Part shown: positions 1 through 20,053 of the stretch, one piece after another | Numbering within the stretch: the stretch's first letter is position 1 | How the letters are laid out: every line of letters begins with the position of its first letter | NCBI GenBank assembly: GCA_014360825.1 | Contig: JACIWT010000017.1 | Location: 1 to 45,990 of the forward strand | Direction of reading: 5' to 3' | Length of the DNA: 45,990 bases | Source: Chloroflexota bacterium | Lineage (GTDB): Bacteria; Chloroflexota; Anaerolineae; UBA2200; JACIWT01 | The notes under the pieces: model-generated | Database searches by the model: none | Told to the model about the DNA's origin: nothing | Seen by the model: only the letters and a program-made list of their open reading frames with translations | Position numbers and translations under genes: made by a program

Positions 1-42
1 GTATGTTTTTGGGGCTGGTAGCGAGGCTGCTCTTTTCATTTT

Positions 43-125
43 GGGGCGGTGGCGAAACGGCAGACGCTGCGGACTTAAAATCCGCTGGAGGCAACTCCAT
101 GAGGGTTCGAATCCCTCCCGCCCCA
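43..125 (+). tRNA. tRNA-Leu(UAA)
   Basis: The sequence folds as a class II tRNA. The acceptor stem pairs GGGGCGG (43-49) with CCGCCCC (118-124), with discriminator A125. The anticodon stem GCGGA/TCCGC encloses loop CTTAAAA, so the anticodon is TAA and the tRNA reads UUA leucine codons. There is a short variable arm (GGAG-GCAA-CTCC type) and a normal T arm, GAGGG-TTCGAAT-CCCTC. CCA is not encoded. A recombinase gene starts 212 bp downstream, the usual arrangement when a tRNA gene is an integration target. Confidence 0.97.
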
Positions 126-181
126 TTGAAACACAATATGTTGTAGATTCTGGCTGATCTTACCTATATCTGGTGGTCTCA

Positions 182-213
182 GGCTCTCCTATCGCAGGAG
201 AGCCTTTTCTTTT
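182..213 (+). terminator. Rho-independent terminator after tRNA-Leu
   Basis: A perfect 9-bp stem, GGCTCTCCT (182-190) and AGGAGAGCC (196-204), has a 5-nt loop and is followed by TTTTCTTTT. It lies 57 bp past the tRNA and probably ends the tRNA transcript, insulating it from the recombinase gene. Confidence 0.88.
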
Positions 214-225
214 GCCTCCAAAAGT

Positions 226-293
226 CCTGCGGACTTGCGCAAAGACAAAGCAGCAAAACTCCTGCGGATTCTCTTCAGGACTCCTGCGGACTT
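226..293 (+). repeat. Three CCTGCGGAYT repeats in the recombinase leader, matching the tRNA anticodon arm
   Basis: CCTGCGGACTT occurs at 226-236 and 283-293, and CCTGCGGATT at 261-270. The first is also part of an inverted repeat, AAGTCC-TGC-GGACTT. Ten bases, CTGCGGACTT, recur exactly inside tRNA-Leu at 67-76, covering the 5' side of the anticodon stem and loop. Their position between the tRNA and a tyrosine recombinase suggests recombinase binding or crossover sites. That function is inferred; the matches are seen directly. Confidence 0.6.
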
Positions 294-336
294 CGAGAAT
301 CCGCACTCTCTAAGGAATTGATATGGAGGTAACACA

Positions 337-1305
337 ATGGCTGGAAATACCGATCTGACTACCCTTATCGAGGGATTTCGTCTCTTTTGCTTGGCTGAGG
401 GCAAGCAAGTCACCACTATGCGCTGGTATATGGGAAAGCTTAAGGTTTTCGTGAACTACCTCCAGGCCCAGAACTTGCCAACCAGCGCTACTGAAATCAC
501 CACTACCCACCTGCGAGCTTTCCTCGTCCACCTGAGGGAGAACGTTAAGGCTGATGAGAACAATCCCATGAAACCAACACAAGACAAGCAACTCTCCCCT
601 AAAACCATACAAGGCTATGCCCGCACACTGAAGGTTTTCTTCTCGTGGCTCGCTCGGGAAGGCTACCTCCGTGATGATTTGGGAAGGTTGCTTAAGATCC
701 CCAGCGCACCAAAGGTGATCGTTGAAACCCTGAGCGACTCACAGATCAAGCAGCTGTTGTCAACCGTTGATTGCAGGACCCCGAGGGGATTCAGAGATTA
801 CTGCATCATCCTGGTCCTTCTGGACACCGGAGTCAGGCTGTCGGAGCTAGTCAACCTTCAGCTCAAAGACCTCGACCTGGAAAGAGGAGTCTTCAAGGTG
901 ATGGGGAAAGGTGCCAAAGAAAGGCTGGTACCCTTCGGCGCAAAAGTCAAGACGGCACTCTGGAAATACGTTCACAAGTTCCGACCCGAGCCATTCCATC
1001 CGAACATCGGCAATCTGTTCCTTCAATCCAACGGCCAACCCCTGACCTCTGATCAAGTATACCGGCTAATCAGGAATTACGCTCGCACGGCAGGAATTGA
1101 GGGTGTAAGATGCTCGCCGCATACGCTCCGCCATACTTTCGCTAAGAACTTCCTCATAAACGGTGGTGACCTGTTCACTTTGCAGAAGATCCTGGGTCAC
1201 TCCAGCCTGGATGTCGTGAGAATATATGTGGAGCTGACCTCTGAAGAGGTGCAGGTTCAACACCGGCGATACAGCCCGGTGGACTGGCTGAAATTAAAGG
1301 TCTGA
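337..1305 (+). CDS. Tyrosine recombinase/integrase, catalytically complete
   Basis: A 322-residue site-specific DNA recombinase of the XerC/D-phage integrase family. It should cut and join DNA through a phosphotyrosine intermediate to insert or excise the element. An N-terminal SAM-like core-binding domain (about 8-112) precedes the catalytic domain (about 130-320). All catalytic positions are visible: Arg167 in TGVR, Lys near 191 in GKGAKER, HTLR (His262, Arg265), His288 in LGHSS and Tyr297. The ATG start has an excellent ribosome site, GGAGGT, seven bases upstream. Its neighbour is tRNA-Leu, the likely target. Its last 12 bp overlap the end of a convergent paralogue. Family assignment is firm; the target is inferred from position. 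Confidence 0.94.
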   Translation: MAGNTDLTTLIEGFRLFCLAEGKQVTTMRWYMGKLKVFVNYLQAQNLPTSATEITTTHLRAFLVHLRENVKADENNPMKPTQDKQLSPKTIQGYARTLKVFFSWLAREGYLRDDLGRLLKIPSAPKVIVETLSDSQIKQLLSTVDCRTPRGFRDYCIILVLLDTGVRLSELVNLQLKDLDLERGVFKVMGKGAKERLVPFGAKVKTALWKYVHKFRPEPFHPNIGNLFLQSNGQPLTSDQVYRLIRNYARTAGIEGVRCSPHTLRHTFAKNFLINGGDLFTLQKILGHSSLDVVRIYVELTSEEVQVQHRRYSPVDWLKLKV

Positions 1306-2397
1306 GCAGGTAGCCAGTCTGGCCCTGAAAACATCCATTGGGCTGTATTTCCACTGTTGGGCGAGGAGATCCTTCGTGTCGAGATTGACATAGAGTTTCA
1401 CTACTTCTAGGCTGGAGTGACCAAGGATGCGCTGCAGGGTAAGCAGATCTCCTCCATTAAGGAGAAAGTTTCGGGCGAAGGTGTGCCTACAGGTGTGGGG
1501 GCCCAGCCGCTTTCCGTGGATCCCCGCTTCCCTGCACGCCTGGGCGATGATCTTATAGACGTAGTCAGACGTTAACGGGTATCCGGCCCTGGTCAGAAAG
1601 ACATTATCAATGCTGCTCAGGGCGGGCGTCGGCCTGTACCTGTGCACATAGTCGAGTAGCGTCCTGCAACTACTTCTGCCCAGAGGAACTATGCGCTCCT
1701 TGTTGCCCTTACCGAGGACCTTGAAATATCCACCGTCTATACAGAGGTTCTTCATTTGCAGATTGACCAGTTCAGAGACACGCACACCGGTATCCAGGAG
1801 TACGTGCAGCATGGCGTAGTTCCGCTTCCCTTGGGCGGTAGGTTTTCTTATCGTGGTCAGAAGCCTGCTCACCTCCTGATCGGTGAAGAATGGCATCGCC
1901 ACGGTCGCTATCTTCGGCGTCTTGATGTGCCTCATCGGATTGTCAGTCAGGAGACCTTCCATGACCGCCCAAGAGAAGAAAGCCTTCAGCGTTTTCACAT
2001 AGCCGGCCACTGTGTGCGAAGACAATGCTCTGTCTCCGGTACAGCGTCGTGGGTTATTCTCGCCGACCTTGACCTGGGTTTGTAAGTGATGAACAAACCG
2101 CCTGATCTCCTGCACAGTGATTTCCTCCACCCGCGCGGATTGGCCTTGGTTTCTCAGAAAGACCAAGAAGTACTCCAACTTCTGCCGATACCAGCGTATC
2201 GTCCTCGGGCTTTTGCCCTCGATCTGACAACAAAGAAGATAGTTTCTGACCAGTGTTTCGACGGAATTGCCCGCCCTTGAGAGGCTTACTGCCCAGGCGC
2301 CTTCAGCCCGCACCCGAACCCCAGGACGCACTCTTTGAACCTTGCCCATCTTAGAAAACCATCCGCAATTGAACCTCTCGCGAGGTGAGACTCTCAA
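1294..2397 (-). CDS. Second tyrosine recombinase, paralogue of the first, convergent
   Basis: A 367-residue tyrosine recombinase clearly related to the 337-1305 product, sharing TGVR, SELVNLQ, LGKGNKER, PHTCRHTFARNFL, LGHSSLEVV, a catalytic Tyr and a YSPMD tail. All catalytic residues are kept, so it should be active. The core-binding domain starts near residue 45; the first 40 residues look poorly conserved. The listed TTG start overlaps the stop of the upstream gene (TTGA), suggesting coupling, but no clear ribosome site is seen, so a later start such as the ATG at 2349 is possible. It is the last gene of the leftward transfer operon. The two genes may act together or in opposite directions (integration versus excision). 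Confidence 0.88.
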   Translation of the reverse strand: MRVSPRERFNCGWFSKMGKVQRVRPGVRVRAEGAWAVSLSRAGNSVETLVRNYLLCCQIEGKSPRTIRWYRQKLEYFLVFLRNQGQSARVEEITVQEIRRFVHHLQTQVKVGENNPRRCTGDRALSSHTVAGYVKTLKAFFSWAVMEGLLTDNPMRHIKTPKIATVAMPFFTDQEVSRLLTTIRKPTAQGKRNYAMLHVLLDTGVRVSELVNLQMKNLCIDGGYFKVLGKGNKERIVPLGRSSCRTLLDYVHRYRPTPALSSIDNVFLTRAGYPLTSDYVYKIIAQACREAGIHGKRLGPHTCRHTFARNFLLNGGDLLTLQRILGHSSLEVVKLYVNLDTKDLLAQQWKYSPMDVFRARLATCSDL

Positions 2398-3245
2398 TCC
2401 ACAAATCTCATGCGCTGCTCTTCACCTGGCCTGCGCCAGATCGGCCCCAGGACATCCCCGTGAACCAGATCTCGAGCCGTCACCAGGACCGTGGGCAGAG
2501 AGGGGAACTCACCCCTACCAAGCCTTCTGGCCATCCAATCCACCATCTTCTTCTCCCTTCGCTCATCCGGAGCCACAATTAGGAGCCGTGGCCGGAGCTC
2601 CATTTCCCCAACATGGTTATGATAACCTCGTACTAGGTAGTACGCTTCATAGACCTGTAGTTTCTCAGCGAAGCGCGTCATGCTCTCCGTCCCCCGATCC
2701 CACTCCAGAAAAAAGGAACCCTCCTCCGTTCCCAGAGCCCACAGACAATAGGCGTCCGGGCTCAGGACGAGACGCTTTCCACGATGCGTGAATGCATAGC
2801 GCACTTCACCTTCCCCGAGCCACACCAATGCCCTCCCTCCCCTGCTCTCAAGGCCCTCTTTTATGGCAATGTAGAAATCCACTACTTCTAGCCCATGGCA
2901 GAGGCCAGCAATGCTCTCCACCCTGCGACCTCTTGCACCCGGGCCAACAACCTTTTTACGGCCCTCATTGAAAGCCAGAAGGGCACCCCTTCCCGGCTGA
3001 TAGACGTAAGGCCCTGAACCCTGGGTCACGGGCAGCCGCAGGCGGGTCAGGTAACCCCTTTCTGTCAGGATTCTCAGGCGTCGGCAGGCGGCTTGCACCG
3101 AGGCCAGCTCACCATCTTTCCGGAAGTAGAGCCTTTGGATCTGCTCCCGAATCATCTGCCCATGCCGGACTACCGCCCGGATGATCTCCTGATCCCGGGA
3201 AGTGGGAGGCAATGTCCTGCCGGCGCCGCTTCTCCGGTTCCTCAT
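2394..3245 (-). CDS. Replication-relaxation (MobC-like) winged-helix protein
   Basis: A protein of about 283 residues resembling the Replic_Relax family found with coupling proteins on mobile elements. The N-terminal region (TSRDQEIIRAV to YLTRLRL) looks like a winged helix. The middle holds the family-like SPDAYCLW and FFLEWDRGTES stretches, followed by KLQVYEAYY, whose acidic residues recall a nuclease-like fold. In this family the protein is thought to act at the transfer origin; here that is inference. The ATG at 3245 is preferred over one at 3272 because AAGGAGG lies six bases upstream of it. This start lies 137 bp inside the upstream coupling-protein reading frame, an unusually long overlap. 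Confidence 0.8.
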   Translation of the reverse strand: MRNRRSGAGRTLPPTSRDQEIIRAVVRHGQMIREQIQRLYFRKDGELASVQAACRRLRILTERGYLTRLRLPVTQGSGPYVYQPGRGALLAFNEGRKKVVGPGARGRRVESIAGLCHGLEVVDFYIAIKEGLESRGGRALVWLGEGEVRYAFTHRGKRLVLSPDAYCLWALGTEEGSFFLEWDRGTESMTRFAEKLQVYEAYYLVRGYHNHVGEMELRPRLLIVAPDERREKKMVDWMARRLGRGEFPSLPTVLVTARDLVHGDVLGPIWRRPGEEQRMRFVD

Positions 3246-5307
3246 ATCTCCCCTCCTTCTCTCCCAACACAATCGCTTCCTCTACCACATGGCGAGGTAG
3301 AGCGTACTTCTCCCTGCTCCTCTGGACCAACATCTCCACCTGGTCCCTAGCCTGGTATCTGGAAGGCGGGGGCGGGGTGCGGGCCCAGAAGGCAGGCAAT
3401 TTGACCCCCTCCTGCATCAATTGCGCGTAGATCTCGTACCTCCCCAGAGAGCGGATCTCATCGGCGCTTAGCTCCTGGGTATTGAAGTGCCGCTCCAAGT
3501 AGACCGCCTCGTCCCGCTCGCCCATTTGGAAGCAGATGACGTTCCCCACGTTGGCAAAGATCGCCTCCCTGGTCTCTTTCGGCTTCAACTGTCCCAGACG
3601 CTGGGCAGCCAGGATGAGCCCCAGACCAAACTTCCTCACCTGGTCTGCCATCTCCCCCACCGTGCGAGAGATGAACCAGGAGCACTCGTCCATGATCAGG
3701 AAGTGTAGGGCCCTTTCCGATTCCGGCGTGTCCTCTCTGGAAAGAGCAGTCTGCCGAAAGAGCAAAGTCAGTAGCGAGCCCAGGAACTGGGCGTTGTTGA
3801 CCCCGATCCCGGCCAGGTCAAACAGGAGAATGTTGCTTTTGTCCATCACGTGGCGGATGTTGATCGCCGATTTCCTTTGCCCCACGATGTTCCTAATGAA
3901 AGGCGTTCCCAGAAAGCGCTGCAGCCGGTGCAAGGTAGGGGCCACCTTCTGCTCCCTGATCCCCTCCCGGAAAGCAGATAATTGCTCGAGGAAGCGCCTG
4001 GTCTCGGCGTTGCTCACCCTGGGCAGGATGGATTGGCGATAGAGGTCGTCGTCCAGGATCCTGGCCATGTCTACCAGGGTGCCCCCGATCTCGAGAGCCG
4101 CGTAGGCCGTGTGTCTGAGTACCATATCCAGGACCGGCCCCCAGTACTCCGTCCCATAGATGCGGCGGCAGATCTCCACCAGTTCGTCCACGACCAGGAA
4201 TTCGAAGCCCGGCCTGGCAGTCAGGAAGTTAAGGCCCACCGGGTGGGCCACATCGGCGAAGCGCACCACGATCACATCTTCGAGCCTGTGGTCAGGGAGG
4301 CTGCCCAGAAGGGAGGGCACCAGGCTGCCGTGAGGATCCATCACACTCACCCCAAAGCCCAGGGCTACCAGGTCCAGGGCAATGTTGAGCAGGAGGGTTG
4401 ACTTCCCAGTCCCGGTGGACCCGAAGAGGACCAGATGCCTCAGGAGATCCTGTGGAGCCAGACGTATTTCCTTCTCCTGCCCATTCAGCGAAACAAACCC
4501 CACCCGTACACCCTTCGTGGCCAGTCTCGTCAAGGGCGGCAGCCTCCTGGCCCCGCTGAACTCCAGGTATCGATTGCGTACTTTCTCCGGCGAGGGGATG
4601 TGATACAGTGCGGTCAGCTCGTCCAGGGTGAGAAGGGAAGGGTTCAGGCGAAGGAGAGGCCAGTGCCTCGAGCGCATGGCTCGCAGAGCACTTCCGGAGT
4701 TCACCTTGATCCTGGTGGGCCTGAGGGCATTCTCCGCCCCAAACTGGCCGAAGGCAGCGATCATGTTCCCCAAGCGGTTGCGAGCCTGGCGGGTGGTCCC
4801 AGCCCAGGCCATCAGCCGCAGGATAGCTTGGAAGCATATGCCCTCCATGCTCGGTGCCAGGGCCGGGCGCACCAGGATCTGGATCATCGCCCCATCGCCG
4901 GGTGAAAGGTCCGAGATGCTGGCCAGAACCCCGGCCATCGGATCGGCTTCGCTGTCCTTCAAGATCCTCAAAGGCCTGTCCCGGCTCATACCTAGCACCA
5001 GCTCCGCAGAGGCGAACTCCGCTGGTTCTGAGCCCGCTTCCTCGGTGGGTTGGATTTCTACATCCGGGAAGTGGGCTTTGATTTGCTCCACCGCCATTTC
5101 GCCTACAGCTGGGTAGGGCACCCAGATTTGAAACTGAATTCTACCAGACTCTCCTCTGATCTCCAGGGAGATGTGTTCCTGCAGTCCAAACAGGCGGCGG
5201 ATGATAGACTTAGGCAGTGCCTGCCAAAAGGCAGCCAGCCACCTGCTGGAGGCGGAGAGGTCATGAACGGTATTCTTCGATGGCACGATCTTCAGGATCT
5301 GGTACAT
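3109..5307 (-). CDS. VirD4/TraG-like conjugative coupling ATPase
   Basis: A 732-residue P-loop ATPase of the type IV coupling/DNA-pump class that should deliver element DNA to a transfer channel at the membrane. Walker A is GSTGTGKST (about 296-304). Walker B is FLIMDEC (about 537-542). A Gln-bearing motif, AAQRLGQL, follows near 568. The roughly 250-residue N-terminal part matches the accessory domain seen in Gram-positive and Chloroflexota coupling-type ATPases. No obvious N-terminal membrane segments are seen, so membrane attachment may come from neighbouring proteins. The last 45 residues are low in conserved character and lie over the start of the next gene, suggesting a lost stop codon. 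A promoter-like extended -10 lies about 140 bp upstream. Confidence 0.87.
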   Translation of the reverse strand: MYQILKIVPSKNTVHDLSASSRWLAAFWQALPKSIIRRLFGLQEHISLEIRGESGRIQFQIWVPYPAVGEMAVEQIKAHFPDVEIQPTEEAGSEPAEFASAELVLGMSRDRPLRILKDSEADPMAGVLASISDLSPGDGAMIQILVRPALAPSMEGICFQAILRLMAWAGTTRQARNRLGNMIAAFGQFGAENALRPTRIKVNSGSALRAMRSRHWPLLRLNPSLLTLDELTALYHIPSPEKVRNRYLEFSGARRLPPLTRLATKGVRVGFVSLNGQEKEIRLAPQDLLRHLVLFGSTGTGKSTLLLNIALDLVALGFGVSVMDPHGSLVPSLLGSLPDHRLEDVIVVRFADVAHPVGLNFLTARPGFEFLVVDELVEICRRIYGTEYWGPVLDMVLRHTAYAALEIGGTLVDMARILDDDLYRQSILPRVSNAETRRFLEQLSAFREGIREQKVAPTLHRLQRFLGTPFIRNIVGQRKSAINIRHVMDKSNILLFDLAGIGVNNAQFLGSLLTLLFRQTALSREDTPESERALHFLIMDECSWFISRTVGEMADQVRKFGLGLILAAQRLGQLKPKETREAIFANVGNVICFQMGERDEAVYLERHFNTQELSADEIRSLGRYEIYAQLMQEGVKLPAFWARTPPPPSRYQARDQVEMLVQRSREKYALPRHVVEEAIVLGEKEGRYEEPEKRRRQDIASHFPGSGDHPGGSPAWADDSGADPKALLPERW

Positions 5308-10228: not shown

Positions 10229-11095
10229 ATGCCTTTGCCCTATCTCACCTACTTCGATCTCAAGGAAGAACCATTCAGCACGGTCCCCTCCCCCAGATAT
10301 CTCTTTCTCACCCCGGTCCACGCCACCGCCCTGGGCAAGACCGAGTTCATCGTCGAGGCCAAGAAGGGCCTGACCGTCATCTTCGGAGAGACCGGCATGG
10401 GCAAGTCCAGCCTCGCTCGGCTCCTGCACCAGAAGTTCCTCGACCGAGGCTTTAATTCGGTGCTGTTGACCAATCCCAACTATCCCACTCCTAATGCGCT
10501 CCTGCGCACCATCATCCAGGAATTCCGGCTTCCCAGGACAGCCCGGGCCTATAAGGACAACCTGGATCTTTTCAAGGCCTACCTCTACGATCAAGCATTG
10601 GAGAAAAGGAAAACTATCGTCCTCATCCTGGACGAGGCTCAAAGTCTACGCTTTCCCCTCCTGGAGTTGCTCAGACAGTTGATCAATTACGAGACCAACG
10701 AGCAGAAGCTCCTGCAGCTGGTGCTCTTTGCCCAGGATGAGCTCAGGCTGAAGCTGGCCCACCCGCGAGGCAAGAGTTTCCGCAGCCGCATCGCCATGGC
10801 CTCCACACTGGACCGGCTGGCCCCAGAGGAGATCGAGAAGATGATCGATTTCCGCTGGCAGGTGGCCAGTGGCGGGAACGCACACCCCTTCGAATTAGGG
10901 GCTTTACGAATGATCTTTGAGCATTCGCAAGGCATCCCCAGAGAGGCCAATATCTTGGCCGACAATTCCCTCCTTCTGGCCTACCTCAGGAAGGTCAGGA
11001 GGATCACCCAGAAACTGGTTGAGGAGGCAGCCAGGGAGCGCCATGAGACCATCGGCTCTGGGAAGGAGAAAGATGAGAAACGACCCATTCGCTGA
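10229..11095 (+). CDS. ExeA/TniB-like AAA ATPase
   Basis: A 288-residue AAA ATPase of the ExeA (GspA-like) type. The N-terminus has the family signature YFDLKEEPFSTVPSPRYLF. Walker A is GETGMGKS (53-60) and Walker B is VLILDEAQS (about 130-138). The C-terminal part is helical, as in the AAA lid. Such ATPases occur in secretion operons and, as relatives of TniB/IstB, in transposition and mobile elements; this setting favours DNA handling. The following gene starts 23 bp before its stop, so the two are co-translated. Confidence 0.86.
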   Translation: MPLPYLTYFDLKEEPFSTVPSPRYLFLTPVHATALGKTEFIVEAKKGLTVIFGETGMGKSSLARLLHQKFLDRGFNSVLLTNPNYPTPNALLRTIIQEFRLPRTARAYKDNLDLFKAYLYDQALEKRKTIVLILDEAQSLRFPLLELLRQLINYETNEQKLLQLVLFAQDELRLKLAHPRGKSFRSRIAMASTLDRLAPEEIEKMIDFRWQVASGGNAHPFELGALRMIFEHSQGIPREANILADNSLLLAYLRKVRRITQKLVEEAARERHETIGSGKEKDEKRPIR

Positions 11096-17421: not shown

Positions 17422-18363
17422 TCACAACCCCGGCCTGGCCAATCTCGAGTACTTCTCCCTGGTCTCGTCGTTCCAGCTTCCCGGGGCCAGCCCCAGTTTC
17501 TCAAATACTCGCTCGATTCTCTCCCCAGCCTTGAGTTGTCGTACCGCAAAGGTGTCTCTCAGAACCTGGCAGCTAACCTTCTTTACAATCCCAGCCCTTT
17601 GGGCGGTGTTTCGCAATAAGTAGCTCAGATTGCGCTCGCTACACTCAAAGAGGTATTCCTGCGGGCAATACTCCGCCATGTAAGCCCTAAAAGCAGCAGG
17701 GAACTCAGGGGGAAGCCTCAGTTTCCTCTGCTTGAACGCCTTTCCTTTATGTCTGATCCAAACCTCTGGACGATACTGGTTCGAAAGATCGATGTCCTTG
17801 AGCCGAATCCCCAAAAGTTCCTCTCTCTTCACTCCTGTCTCCAAAAGGAGAAGAACTAGCAGGTACGTTCGGCTGTCCTTACTCGCCTCACCAAGGAGTC
17901 TCTCGCACTCCTCATCATACAGGACATCCGGCAGGGGAGAAGTGGCCCTTTTGTAGATCAGCCTTGATGCAGGGTCCTGCGGGATCACATTGCTTTCGAC
18001 CAGCCAGCGGAAGAAGTTCTTCAGTGCGGTCACCCGGCGGTTCAGGGATTTTGGGCTGCAGGGCTTCCCGCGGCTAGATCGCAGATATGCAAGGAAGCTT
18101 TCCAGTTCAGCGGTGCCAATGCCACCGACCTTCTTGTTCGGGCCGATGAACTTCCGCAGGAGAACTACGTCTGCGAGGAAGGCTTTGACAGTGTGCCTGG
18201 AATACGAACTGGCTGCAAGGTGAGCGTGATAGGCCTGCATGGCCGCAGAGATGGAGGAGGCACTGGAAAGCGGCCTGGACGCAATTAGGGACGGAGGATA
18301 TTCTCCCGTGCCATTCTTGACCTTGAGAAGTGGTAGTTGAAAAGCCCCGCCCTTTCCCTCCAT
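17422..18363 (-). CDS. Tyrosine-recombinase-like protein with degraded active site
   Basis: A 313-residue protein with the full two-domain layout of tyrosine recombinases: a core-binding domain about 40-125 and a catalytic-like domain about 145-310. Key residues differ. TGVK (Lys179) replaces TGVR, QVLR (Gln266) replaces HxLR, GL (Leu292) replaces LGH; Arg269 and a Tyr near 305 remain. Either it is inactive and binds DNA only, or it uses a changed active site. I recall similar degenerate recombinases as common in Chloroflexota. The ATG is only six bases after a TATAAT, suggesting leaderless translation. It may mark the right part of the element. Confidence 0.8.
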   Translation of the reverse strand: MEGKGGAFQLPLLKVKNGTGEYPPSLIASRPLSSASSISAAMQAYHAHLAASSYSRHTVKAFLADVVLLRKFIGPNKKVGGIGTAELESFLAYLRSSRGKPCSPKSLNRRVTALKNFFRWLVESNVIPQDPASRLIYKRATSPLPDVLYDEECERLLGEASKDSRTYLLVLLLLETGVKREELLGIRLKDIDLSNQYRPEVWIRHKGKAFKQRKLRLPPEFPAAFRAYMAEYCPQEYLFECSERNLSYLLRNTAQRAGIVKKVSCQVLRDTFAVRQLKAGERIERVFEKLGLAPGSWNDETREKYSRLARPGL

Positions 18364-18378: not shown

Positions 18379-18847
18379 CCCCTTCCCATAGCCATGCTAC
18401 TACATCCGTCCCATGTCCTATATTTCGCCTTTCTCTTTTGTCTCGCGCCGCGCTCAGGCTTTCTAGGGGAAGGGGGAGGATAGAAACCCTGGCTATGGGA
18501 AGGCGGGTGGGGAGGTACTTTAAGAGAGGACCACCGCTCCGTACACCAACATGCTGATAGCGGGGGTCCCTCGGGTTGCAATCGTCCTTTGGCCCACAGC
18601 GGCGACGCATTCCGCAGCATATGCCAATGCTGTTTATAGACATCAGGTAGTACAAATGGGAGTTAACTGGCCCCCTTCTCGCCTTTAAGGTCAATTTTGA
18701 TCTATAGGCTTAGTGTCTGAAATGCGAATTAAGAAACGGGGGCTTTAGCATGAGAAAGGGATAATAGAACCCTTACCAAGTAGAGCTATCTCTTTCGGCT
18801 CAGCCCACGTAGCCCGAGTAGAGGACTTCTCCGCGATTTACAACCCC
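18379..18847. other. Gene-free stretch
   Basis: No frame here looks coding. GC-rich purine tracts occur near 18460-18530, and a sequence CTCAGCCCACGTAG near 18800 resembles part of the RNA candidate at 19371-19454 (TTCAGCCCACGGAG). Confidence 0.5.
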
Positions 18848-18877
18848 AGCCTGGGGAAGGCACTTGCCTGTCAGGCT
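18848..18877. repeat. Nested palindrome beside a -35 box
   Basis: AGCCTG (18848-18853) and CAGGCT (18872-18877) enclose AGGCA-CT-TGCCT (18858-18869). The outer right arm touches the -35 of the following promoter, a position typical of an operator. Confidence 0.55.
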
Positions 18878-18905
18878 TGTGGAAACACGGGGGTAGTGCT
18901 AAAAT
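18877..18905 (+). promoter_or_regulatory. Extended -10 promoter, leaderless, for the 152-residue protein
   Basis: TTGTGG (18877-18882), 17 bp, then TGcTAAAAT with -10 at 18900-18905. Six bases separate the -10 from ATG 18912, the same spacing as at 18363. Confidence 0.62.
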
Positions 18906-18911
18906 GGGCCT

Positions 18912-19370
18912 ATGCACATCGAAGTCGACCAGAGTGGGAAAATCGGGGATACCAAAGTGGCAACTGTTTTAGCTTTCTCCGACACAGAAAGTTACGCTAT
19001 CCTGATCCCGGCAGAAGTCAAACGGGCCTGTTTACATGAATTGCGCCAGAGAGGGAAATCTGGTACAACCCTTTACCTCCAGCTTTTTGCTGTTGGCCTT
19101 TTCCTGCTTTTAGCAGAGGTGGTTGGGAGAGTGTCGCTTGTCACCATTGACATCGAATATCCAGGACACAGCGCCACTACCAAGAGGTTTTTGATGAACT
19201 TATTTGGAAGGGCTGGGCTCTCGGTTGATGCAGACATGATCGAGTTTCGGCAAATTCACGGGGTCGGAAAGAAACCAGCCGCCCACGACAAGGCCTATTA
19301 CGTCTCCCGTGGTGATGCCAAACCAGACAGGGTTATCACTCTTGAAGAGTTGCTCGAGCAATTCAAATGA
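18912..19370 (+). CDS. Unknown 152-residue protein, possible RNase H-like fold
   Basis: The N-terminus IEVDQSGKIGDTKVATVLAF has an acidic residue and small residues in a beta strand, recalling the first strand of RNase H-like proteins. A second acidic strand, VSLVTIDIEYPG, and a later AAHDKAYYV could supply further residues. This fold is a guess from pattern alone. A hydrophobic helix (LYLQLFAVGLFLLLAEV) lies in the centre and probably packs inside the domain. It has its own leaderless promoter and operator-like palindrome. A leftward RNA candidate abuts its 3' end. Confidence 0.62.
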   Translation: MHIEVDQSGKIGDTKVATVLAFSDTESYAILIPAEVKRACLHELRQRGKSGTTLYLQLFAVGLFLLLAEVVGRVSLVTIDIEYPGHSATTKRFLMNLFGRAGLSVDADMIEFRQIHGVGKKPAAHDKAYYVSRGDAKPDRVITLEELLEQFK

Positions 19371-19454
19371 AAAAGATCGGGGGCTGCCTGACGGCAGGTA
19401 CACCTAGTTCAGCCCACGGAGTGGTTACCGTAAGGTCCCTAGGTCACCCGATCC
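19371..19454 (-). ncRNA. Candidate structured RNA (about 84 nt), multibranched
   Basis: A strong leftward promoter predicts initiation at G19454. From there GATCGGG (19453-19447) pairs with CCCGATC (19381-19375), closing the molecule. Inside, ACCTAG (19445-19440) pairs with CTAGGT, and CTGCC-GTCA-GGCAG forms a hairpin before the closing strand. The 3' end is TTTTT. The layout is that of a compact junction RNA with a terminator-like end. It is not recognised as a tRNA or any known family. There is no open frame. Confidence 0.62.
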
Positions 19455-19460
19455 ATAAAT

Positions 19461-19488
19461 ATTATACCACAAAAACGAAAGTTGTCAA
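19461..19488 (-). promoter_or_regulatory. Consensus promoter for the structured RNA
   Basis: Minus strand TTGACA (19488-19483), a 16-bp spacer and TATAAT (19466-19461). Both hexamers match consensus exactly. Confidence 0.78.
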
Positions 19489-20053
19489 ATTTTCGGTACT
19501 GGGACACTACATGGTACACCACACTGAACCGTGGTGTGCAGAACTTGGACAAATAGGCATACTCTGTCTGATTCCCTAATCAGCTGGAGATTTGCCCATG
19601 GACCCACAAACCATATTTTGCCCCAATTGACTGTCCGGCAAGAGAGCAGATCCTGAAGTTGAGACAAGGGTTCGGACAGGGTGCTGCACCGGGCGAATAA
19701 AGCCTCAAGCACCGTGCACGATCTGCCTGATGACACAAGCAGGCAAACTTTTTGTTTCAGTAGAATGAACAGCCCGGAGTAGAGGTTCCACCTTTTTACC
19801 CCTGTTACTGCAGGTTGCTGTATGAAGGAATCAGCAGGCAACGGTTCAGACTGGTTCACTCCTTCACCGCAGAGGTGGTCACGGATCGCTTCGCCCATCG
19901 CAGGGCTTACTGTTTGATAAGTCCGCGGGACTTCTGAAATCGATGTGCTTGCGGACATCCTCAGCACTTTGGTCTACAGTTCGGATACTGTCGCCATGTG
20001 GAACCGGAATGAATTGGGAACAAGGTCAAAAAGGACTACATAATGCAGCCAGG
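19489..20053. other. Gene-free stretch
   Basis: Open frames here lack protein-like character. AAGTCCGCGGGACTT near 19919 is on one strand a one-mismatch version of the CCTGCGGACTT repeat near the tRNA; it could be chance. Confidence 0.4.

Follow-up and report, generated by a model that had tools for sequence, protein, structure and literature searches.

The question raised by this locus is whether a segment of about 85 nucleotides (nt) in a Chloroflexota contig encodes a functional RNA and, if so, what the RNA has to do with the open reading frame (ORF) that converges on it. The whole stretch of DNA analyzed (45,990 nt) is referred to as the window, and the coordinates of the features are given in Table 1.

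Position, promoter and fold of the RNA

The first-pass annotation of the window had proposed a compact RNA with its own consensus promoter, starting at G19454 on the edge of a 7-bp closing stem whose other strand is followed by five U. All of these elements were recovered. The promoter scored 12/12 against the sigma-70 consensus and was the sole 12/12 site in a 2.2-kb scan; G19454 is 7 nt downstream of the -10 box. The minus strand (about 84-85 nt) folded at -36.6 kcal/mol (z = -2.8; 1/200 shuffles equally good) into a three-way junction of P1, a P2/P3 arm in which an internal loop separates the two helices, and P4. The U5 run (19374-19370) comes directly after P1 and overlaps the stop codon of the convergent ORF (18912-19370).

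Over the RNA, no Rfam 15 family reached its gathering threshold (a tRNA was the only match in the window), and at E values up to 10 just one unrelated, sub-threshold match was obtained. In eight other loci of the RNA family, no relevant match came up at an E cut-off of 0.1. A second copy near 18800, suspected from a partial match, was discarded as chance: the match is an 11-mer with one mismatch, of which about one is expected in the window, the region 18770-18910 folded no better than shuffles, and the covariance model described below found nothing there.

Table 1. Features of the RNA-protein locus (window coordinates).
Feature	Coordinates	Strand	Details and basis
Mobile cassette, ~600 bp	18880..19491		Ends on the right immediately beyond the RNA -35 box; left end approximate
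Three-way-junction RNA, ~85 nt	19370..19454	minus	5' end G19454; sequence, fold, covariance model matches
P1 closing stem	19375..19453	minus	19447-19453 with 19375-19381, 7 bp; fold and double changes
P2	within arm 19402..19444	minus	19439-19444 with 19402-19407; fold and double changes
P3 and apical loop	within arm 19402..19444	minus	19428-19434 with 19413-19419; fold and double changes
P4 hairpin	19384..19397	minus	19393-19397 with 19384-19388; fold and double changes
RNA promoter	19461..19488	minus	-35 TTGACA 19488-19483, 16-nt spacer, extended -10 TATAAT 19466-19461
Partner protein, 152 aa, basic, predicted RNase HII-type fold	18912..19370	plus	ORF, alignment, AF2, VIA-align, pI
Putative -10 box of the protein gene, TAAAAT	18900..18905	plus	Sequence and spacing; 6 nt before ATG

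Covariation in the RNA family

A covariance model was built from 11 close sequences and run over 80 loci (405 kb), where it found about 50 further copies of the RNA and few other matches. A similar folded unit lies on the opposite strand, 3' of the ORF, in nearly every protein homologue. The alignment of 48 distinct RNA rows was model-fitted and includes a few low-scoring opposite-strand rows; in it, 93.6% of cells were paired (68.8% in shuffles) and compensatory changes, i.e. changes on both sides, were present in 25/25 modelled pairs. The covariation score was 0.514 against 0.162 for shuffled alignments (0/500 as high), and sliding the structure along the alignment reduced pairing to 33-49%. 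P1 was paired in 97.6% of cells (double changes in 7/7 pairs), P2 in 96.6% and P3 in about 92% (both with double changes), and P4, which is absent from some CPR copies, in 87% (double changes in 5/5 pairs).

Essentially the same helices were returned by RNAalifold with no structure supplied, on a cleaner alignment (A4) that is itself model-fitted. Five archaeal RNAs in a model-free alignment had the same P1, P2/P3 and P4 architecture, with compensatory changes. G-U exceeded A-C in the paired columns (58 to 22), the asymmetry that an RNA with the minus-strand sequence should show. The conserved loop nucleotides are a GAC/CUnAA internal loop and an AnnC apical loop; no guide-like segment was seen, the unpaired parts being short or conserved, with no long variable single-stranded stretch. 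On this comparative evidence the folded RNA was confirmed as real, and as matching no RNA family catalogued in Rfam 15.

Expression signals

A -35/-10 pair (counted if it scored at least 9/12) was found at the right distance in 35/40 protein-linked RNAs and in 2.3% of shuffles. Among RNAs without the protein it was kept in 10/15 and lost in 5/15. In most archaeal copies the bacterial promoter is replaced, as judged by eye, by a BRE/TATA box that resembles CGAAAGxTTTAAATA and lies some 22-26 nt before the RNA. As the promoter is conserved in two different codes, lack of transcription would be hard to square with the data, and the RNA is very probably transcribed; this is an inference made without transcript data. 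The earlier proposal of a compact functional RNA rather than a simple terminator is thus upheld by the promoter, by the fold shared with archaeal copies and by compensatory changes in every helix, the internal helices first noted by inspection included.

The partner protein

The protein family was absent from Pfam, NCBIfam, PHROGs and PADLOC except for weak single-member matches, and had no sequence-level relatives in the PDB. Its AlphaFold2 model had a pLDDT of 94.8, and VIA-align ranks 1-13 were all RNase HII, HIII or H2 (Z 9.7-7.6). An RNase H2-type fold is predicted on this basis, the similarity being moderate and of fold only. Foldseek against the PDB and BFVD gave weak RNase H/RuvC-like matches and none with E below 0.001, and no match to Pfam RNase HII (PF01351-type) was obtained in 23 family members at E up to 1. 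By eye, the protein has DQSGK where the DEAGRG motif of RNases HII/HIII/H2 sits, with Q for the second acidic residue; it further differs from these enzymes in being much shorter and in having a dedicated RNA gene.

In 66 copies D6 was invariant, and E82 and H125 were each replaced by D in 3/66. A divergent clade of three proteins (L090, L091 and L092) starts with VDLSAK/IDLSAK instead of VDQSGK, with the RNA still there; these are probably the three copies with D for E82 and H125. The median pI was 9.8. The protein is probably a metal-dependent nuclease; that it has nuclease activity is considered likely, by inference only, no activity data being available.

With the putative -10 box 6 nt before the ATG, the mRNA may be leaderless. 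The evidence for this box is weak, since its enrichment across the family is just modest (10/51 against 7% of shuffles), and leaderless translation was not retained as a general trait of the family.

Distribution

Homologues of the protein were found in Anaerolineae (34/396 genomes, up to nine copies each), CPR bacteria (14/240 genomes of one phylum), DPANN archaea (5/194 genomes of one phylum) and one Ignavibacteriales MAG. Searches for viral, phage or plasmid carriers gave no relative in INPHARED, in PLSDB or in IMG/VR, the last scanned with just a single back-translated peptide pattern. None of the libraries searched contains the RNA family or the protein family, and no paper on the pairing of this RNA with a nuclease-like protein turned up in the literature searched.

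Linkage of RNA and protein

The modelled 3' end of the RNA is mostly no more than 7 nt from the protein stop codon. In the Anaerolineae/Ignavibacteriales set the model placed an RNA beside 37/41 intact proteins; among the other four, the RNA was recognized by eye at three loci (L032_3239, L036 and L026) and lies upstream, in divergent orientation, at the fourth (L074). Further intact copies that were fetched had the RNA in 14/14 cases. The bacterial model is often unable to detect the RNA in distant copies from CPR and DPANN; several were judged by eye, L027 and L100 being among the few unresolved.

This arrangement bears on a type I-like antisense role, in which the RNA would simply pair with the 3' end of the protein mRNA. 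Such pairing would be consistent with the convergence of the two transcripts and the overlap of the RNA 3' end with the stop codon. It requires no conserved fold, yet all helices covary; the RNA at L074 is upstream and divergent, and orphan RNAs have no such target, which leaves this explanation very unlikely.

Protein and RNA distances were correlated (Mantel r 0.54, 0/2000), a result that co-inheritance alone could explain. The first-pass annotation had suggested looking for association with the neighbouring protein. At the level of sequence it is supported as a genetic association, by linkage and co-mobility, and it extends to a mobile two-gene cassette that the annotation had not seen.

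Mobility of the cassette

Closely similar cassettes were found in unrelated contexts in two pairs of loci (the window and L042; L037 and L073), the homology stopping at the -35 box of the RNA; for the window copy this boundary lies at 19490/19491. A Woesebacteria copy is nested inside the Anaerolineae copies (97/83), and the DPANN copies form one group. Sequence comparison thus shows the cassette to have been transferred as a unit between unrelated contexts and phyla.

At two loci, L032 (G044:C105) and L085 (G155:C135), three cassettes follow one another in tandem and every protein has an RNA of its own; members of such an array can resemble copies from other families more than each other. At two archaeal loci (L020 and L023), the sequence preceding the cassette resembles, by eye, the start region of the following gene, and might be a duplication from insertion. 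A third tyrosine recombinase of the window (17422-18363; best models XerA/XerC, below cut-offs) lies about 550 bp from the cassette.

The nearby recombinase, the cassette-like mobility and the tandem copies could be accounted for if the structure were a DNA site, such as an integron-type recombination site or transposon end, instead of an RNA gene. This is hardly credible given that the promoter is kept in the form that each domain needs and that the terminal U-run and the asymmetry of G-U over A-C favour a minus-strand RNA. The recombinase fits Xer models better than integron integrase, and neither a terminal inverted repeat nor a target duplication was seen by eye. No attC core (RYYYAAC/GTTRRRY) was seen at the ends of the structure, by eye only and without a dedicated attC model.

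RNAs without the protein

No intact Anaerolineae protein without the RNA was found, whereas protein-less RNAs occur: at least 13 RNAs had no protein, two more adjoin protein remnants, and in some genomes the RNA is present and the protein undetectable. At an orthologous locus of family f32, one genome has both parts (G095), two have the RNA and no protein (G149 and G192), one has an RNA remnant (G068) and one has neither part (G202:C361). There, RNA identity was 86-94%, against 75-79% for the flank in all but one of six comparisons; the exception, L157/L160, had 89% for the RNA and 90% for the flank. One f32 orphan shows a compensatory change in P2. Judged from these alignments, orphan RNAs stay constrained. 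The RNA is also more conserved than the protein.

Continued constraint at protein-less loci, with the compensatory change, is what would be expected of an independent regulatory small RNA, the protein being its processing or turnover enzyme. The promoters kept in two-thirds of the orphans, and an RNA found alone at 95% identity in a different context, fit the same explanation; the promoters lost in the remaining third do not, being what relics would show, and no conserved target gene was seen adjoining the orphans. This explanation is regarded as rather improbable.

Proposed mechanism and comparison with known systems

RNA structure, promoter and strand, linkage, co-inheritance, co-mobility and the predicted protein fold were established by comparison; a previously uncatalogued RNA that moves with a nuclease-like protein in bacteria and archaea suggests an unknown RNA-protein system. 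We propose that the first gene would give a small basic protein of RNase HII fold, putatively a metal-dependent nuclease, and that the second, convergent and under its own promoter, would give the ~85-nt three-way-junction RNA ending in a U-run at the protein stop. The folded RNA, with its conserved internal and apical loops, would dock on the protein and restrain or condition its nuclease activity, in an antidote-like manner as in type III and AbiF RNA antitoxins.

The steps are not equally well supported. With a folded RNA that is linked to a single protein and can persist after its loss, and with a basic partner of nuclease fold, direct binding is the simplest model and is considered likely, inferred in the absence of binding data. 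Antidote-like logic implies that the protein is dispensable while the RNA persists and not the reverse. An antidote role of the RNA is nevertheless only possible and somewhat doubtful, being inferred without toxicity data. That the cassette is a mobile two-gene unit whose RNA is a dedicated binding partner restraining or conditioning the nuclease is put forward tentatively, as a possibility short of even. The broader reading is that a dedicated three-way-junction RNA controls or programs a stand-alone nuclease of RNase HII fold, both uncatalogued, and that together they make up a new mobile RNA-protein class at work in bacteria as well as archaea; it remains tentative too, close to an even call.

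The best explanation is weakened by the conservation of the RNA above that of the protein and by the constraint in orphans, which a pure antidote does not need and which leave the small-RNA role, or that of a ribonucleoprotein effector, still possible. Genomes with the RNA and an undetectable protein, the moderate fold similarity and the unresolved distant CPR copies count against it as well. In such an effector the RNA would be no inhibitor; as a constitutive structural cofactor it would bring the RNase H-like nuclease into position at a target, in defence or mobility. Conserved loop nucleotides, a basic protein of nuclease fold and tight linkage agree with this, as does the better conservation of the RNA. 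The effector is judged unlikely, though worth keeping in view, since no long variable single-stranded segment is usable as a guide and RNAs persist without the protein.

If, as we prefer, the RNA controls the nuclease, the cassette would constitute a nuclease module of a new type, regulated by RNA and based on a fold superfamily ancestral to RNA-guided nucleases. The RNA class and the protein family, found in none of the libraries searched, travel together among Chloroflexota, CPR bacteria and DPANN archaea, the RNA promoter taking the form proper to each domain. With a small unit of ~600 bp, numerous natural variants and orphan RNAs available, the system lends itself to direct testing.

In type III toxin-antitoxin systems (ToxIN, CptIN, TenpIN) the RNA inhibits the toxin by binding. 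The cassette is likewise a compact module of nuclease-like protein and RNA. It does not meet the type III definition of a tandem-repeat RNA upstream in one operon, having a single RNA on the opposite, convergent strand under its own promoter, and the protein folds differ. OMEGA systems (TnpB/IscB with omega RNA) resemble it in the RNase H/RuvC-like superfamily, the adjoining structured RNA and the mobile unit, and differ in that the cassette lacks a guide segment and extra protein domains and has its RNA on the opposite strand. DUF3800 proteins have a DESG-type start and lie near structured RNAs; kinship with them was rejected (no DUF3800 match in the protein, hhalign probability 0.2%, no Rfam match for the RNA). 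AbiF/Abi_2 also combines a nuclease-related protein with a separately transcribed structured ncRNA, and RCd22, an AbiF ncRNA, binds its protein directly and thereby neutralises it (PMC12373285). The cassette differs in the predicted RNase HII-type fold of its protein, in an RNA family unrelated as far as tested and in its absence from the phage collections searched; 23 members of the protein family gave no Abi match in Pfam or PADLOC. Membership in type III or AbiF systems is not shown, and the likeness is one of logic, by analogy.

Additional observations

At window positions 42-5307, genes for two tyrosine integrases, a Replic_Relax protein and a TrwB/HerA-like ATPase come after a tRNA-Leu, an arrangement that resembles an integrative conjugative element sited at a tRNA gene. 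Positions 10229-11095 encode an ATPase similar to the PEP-CTERM system-associated ATPase, with a score under the cut-off. At L027 (2924-8161) the reading frame of the protein continues into a very long ORF that contains repeats and a segment resembling an intein, either a fusion or an assembly oddity. A sub-threshold T-box leader was seen at L018 (829-1220). At L104 (2227-3081), beside the cassette contig, there are 5S rRNA, part of an LSU rRNA and a weak match to a group I intron.
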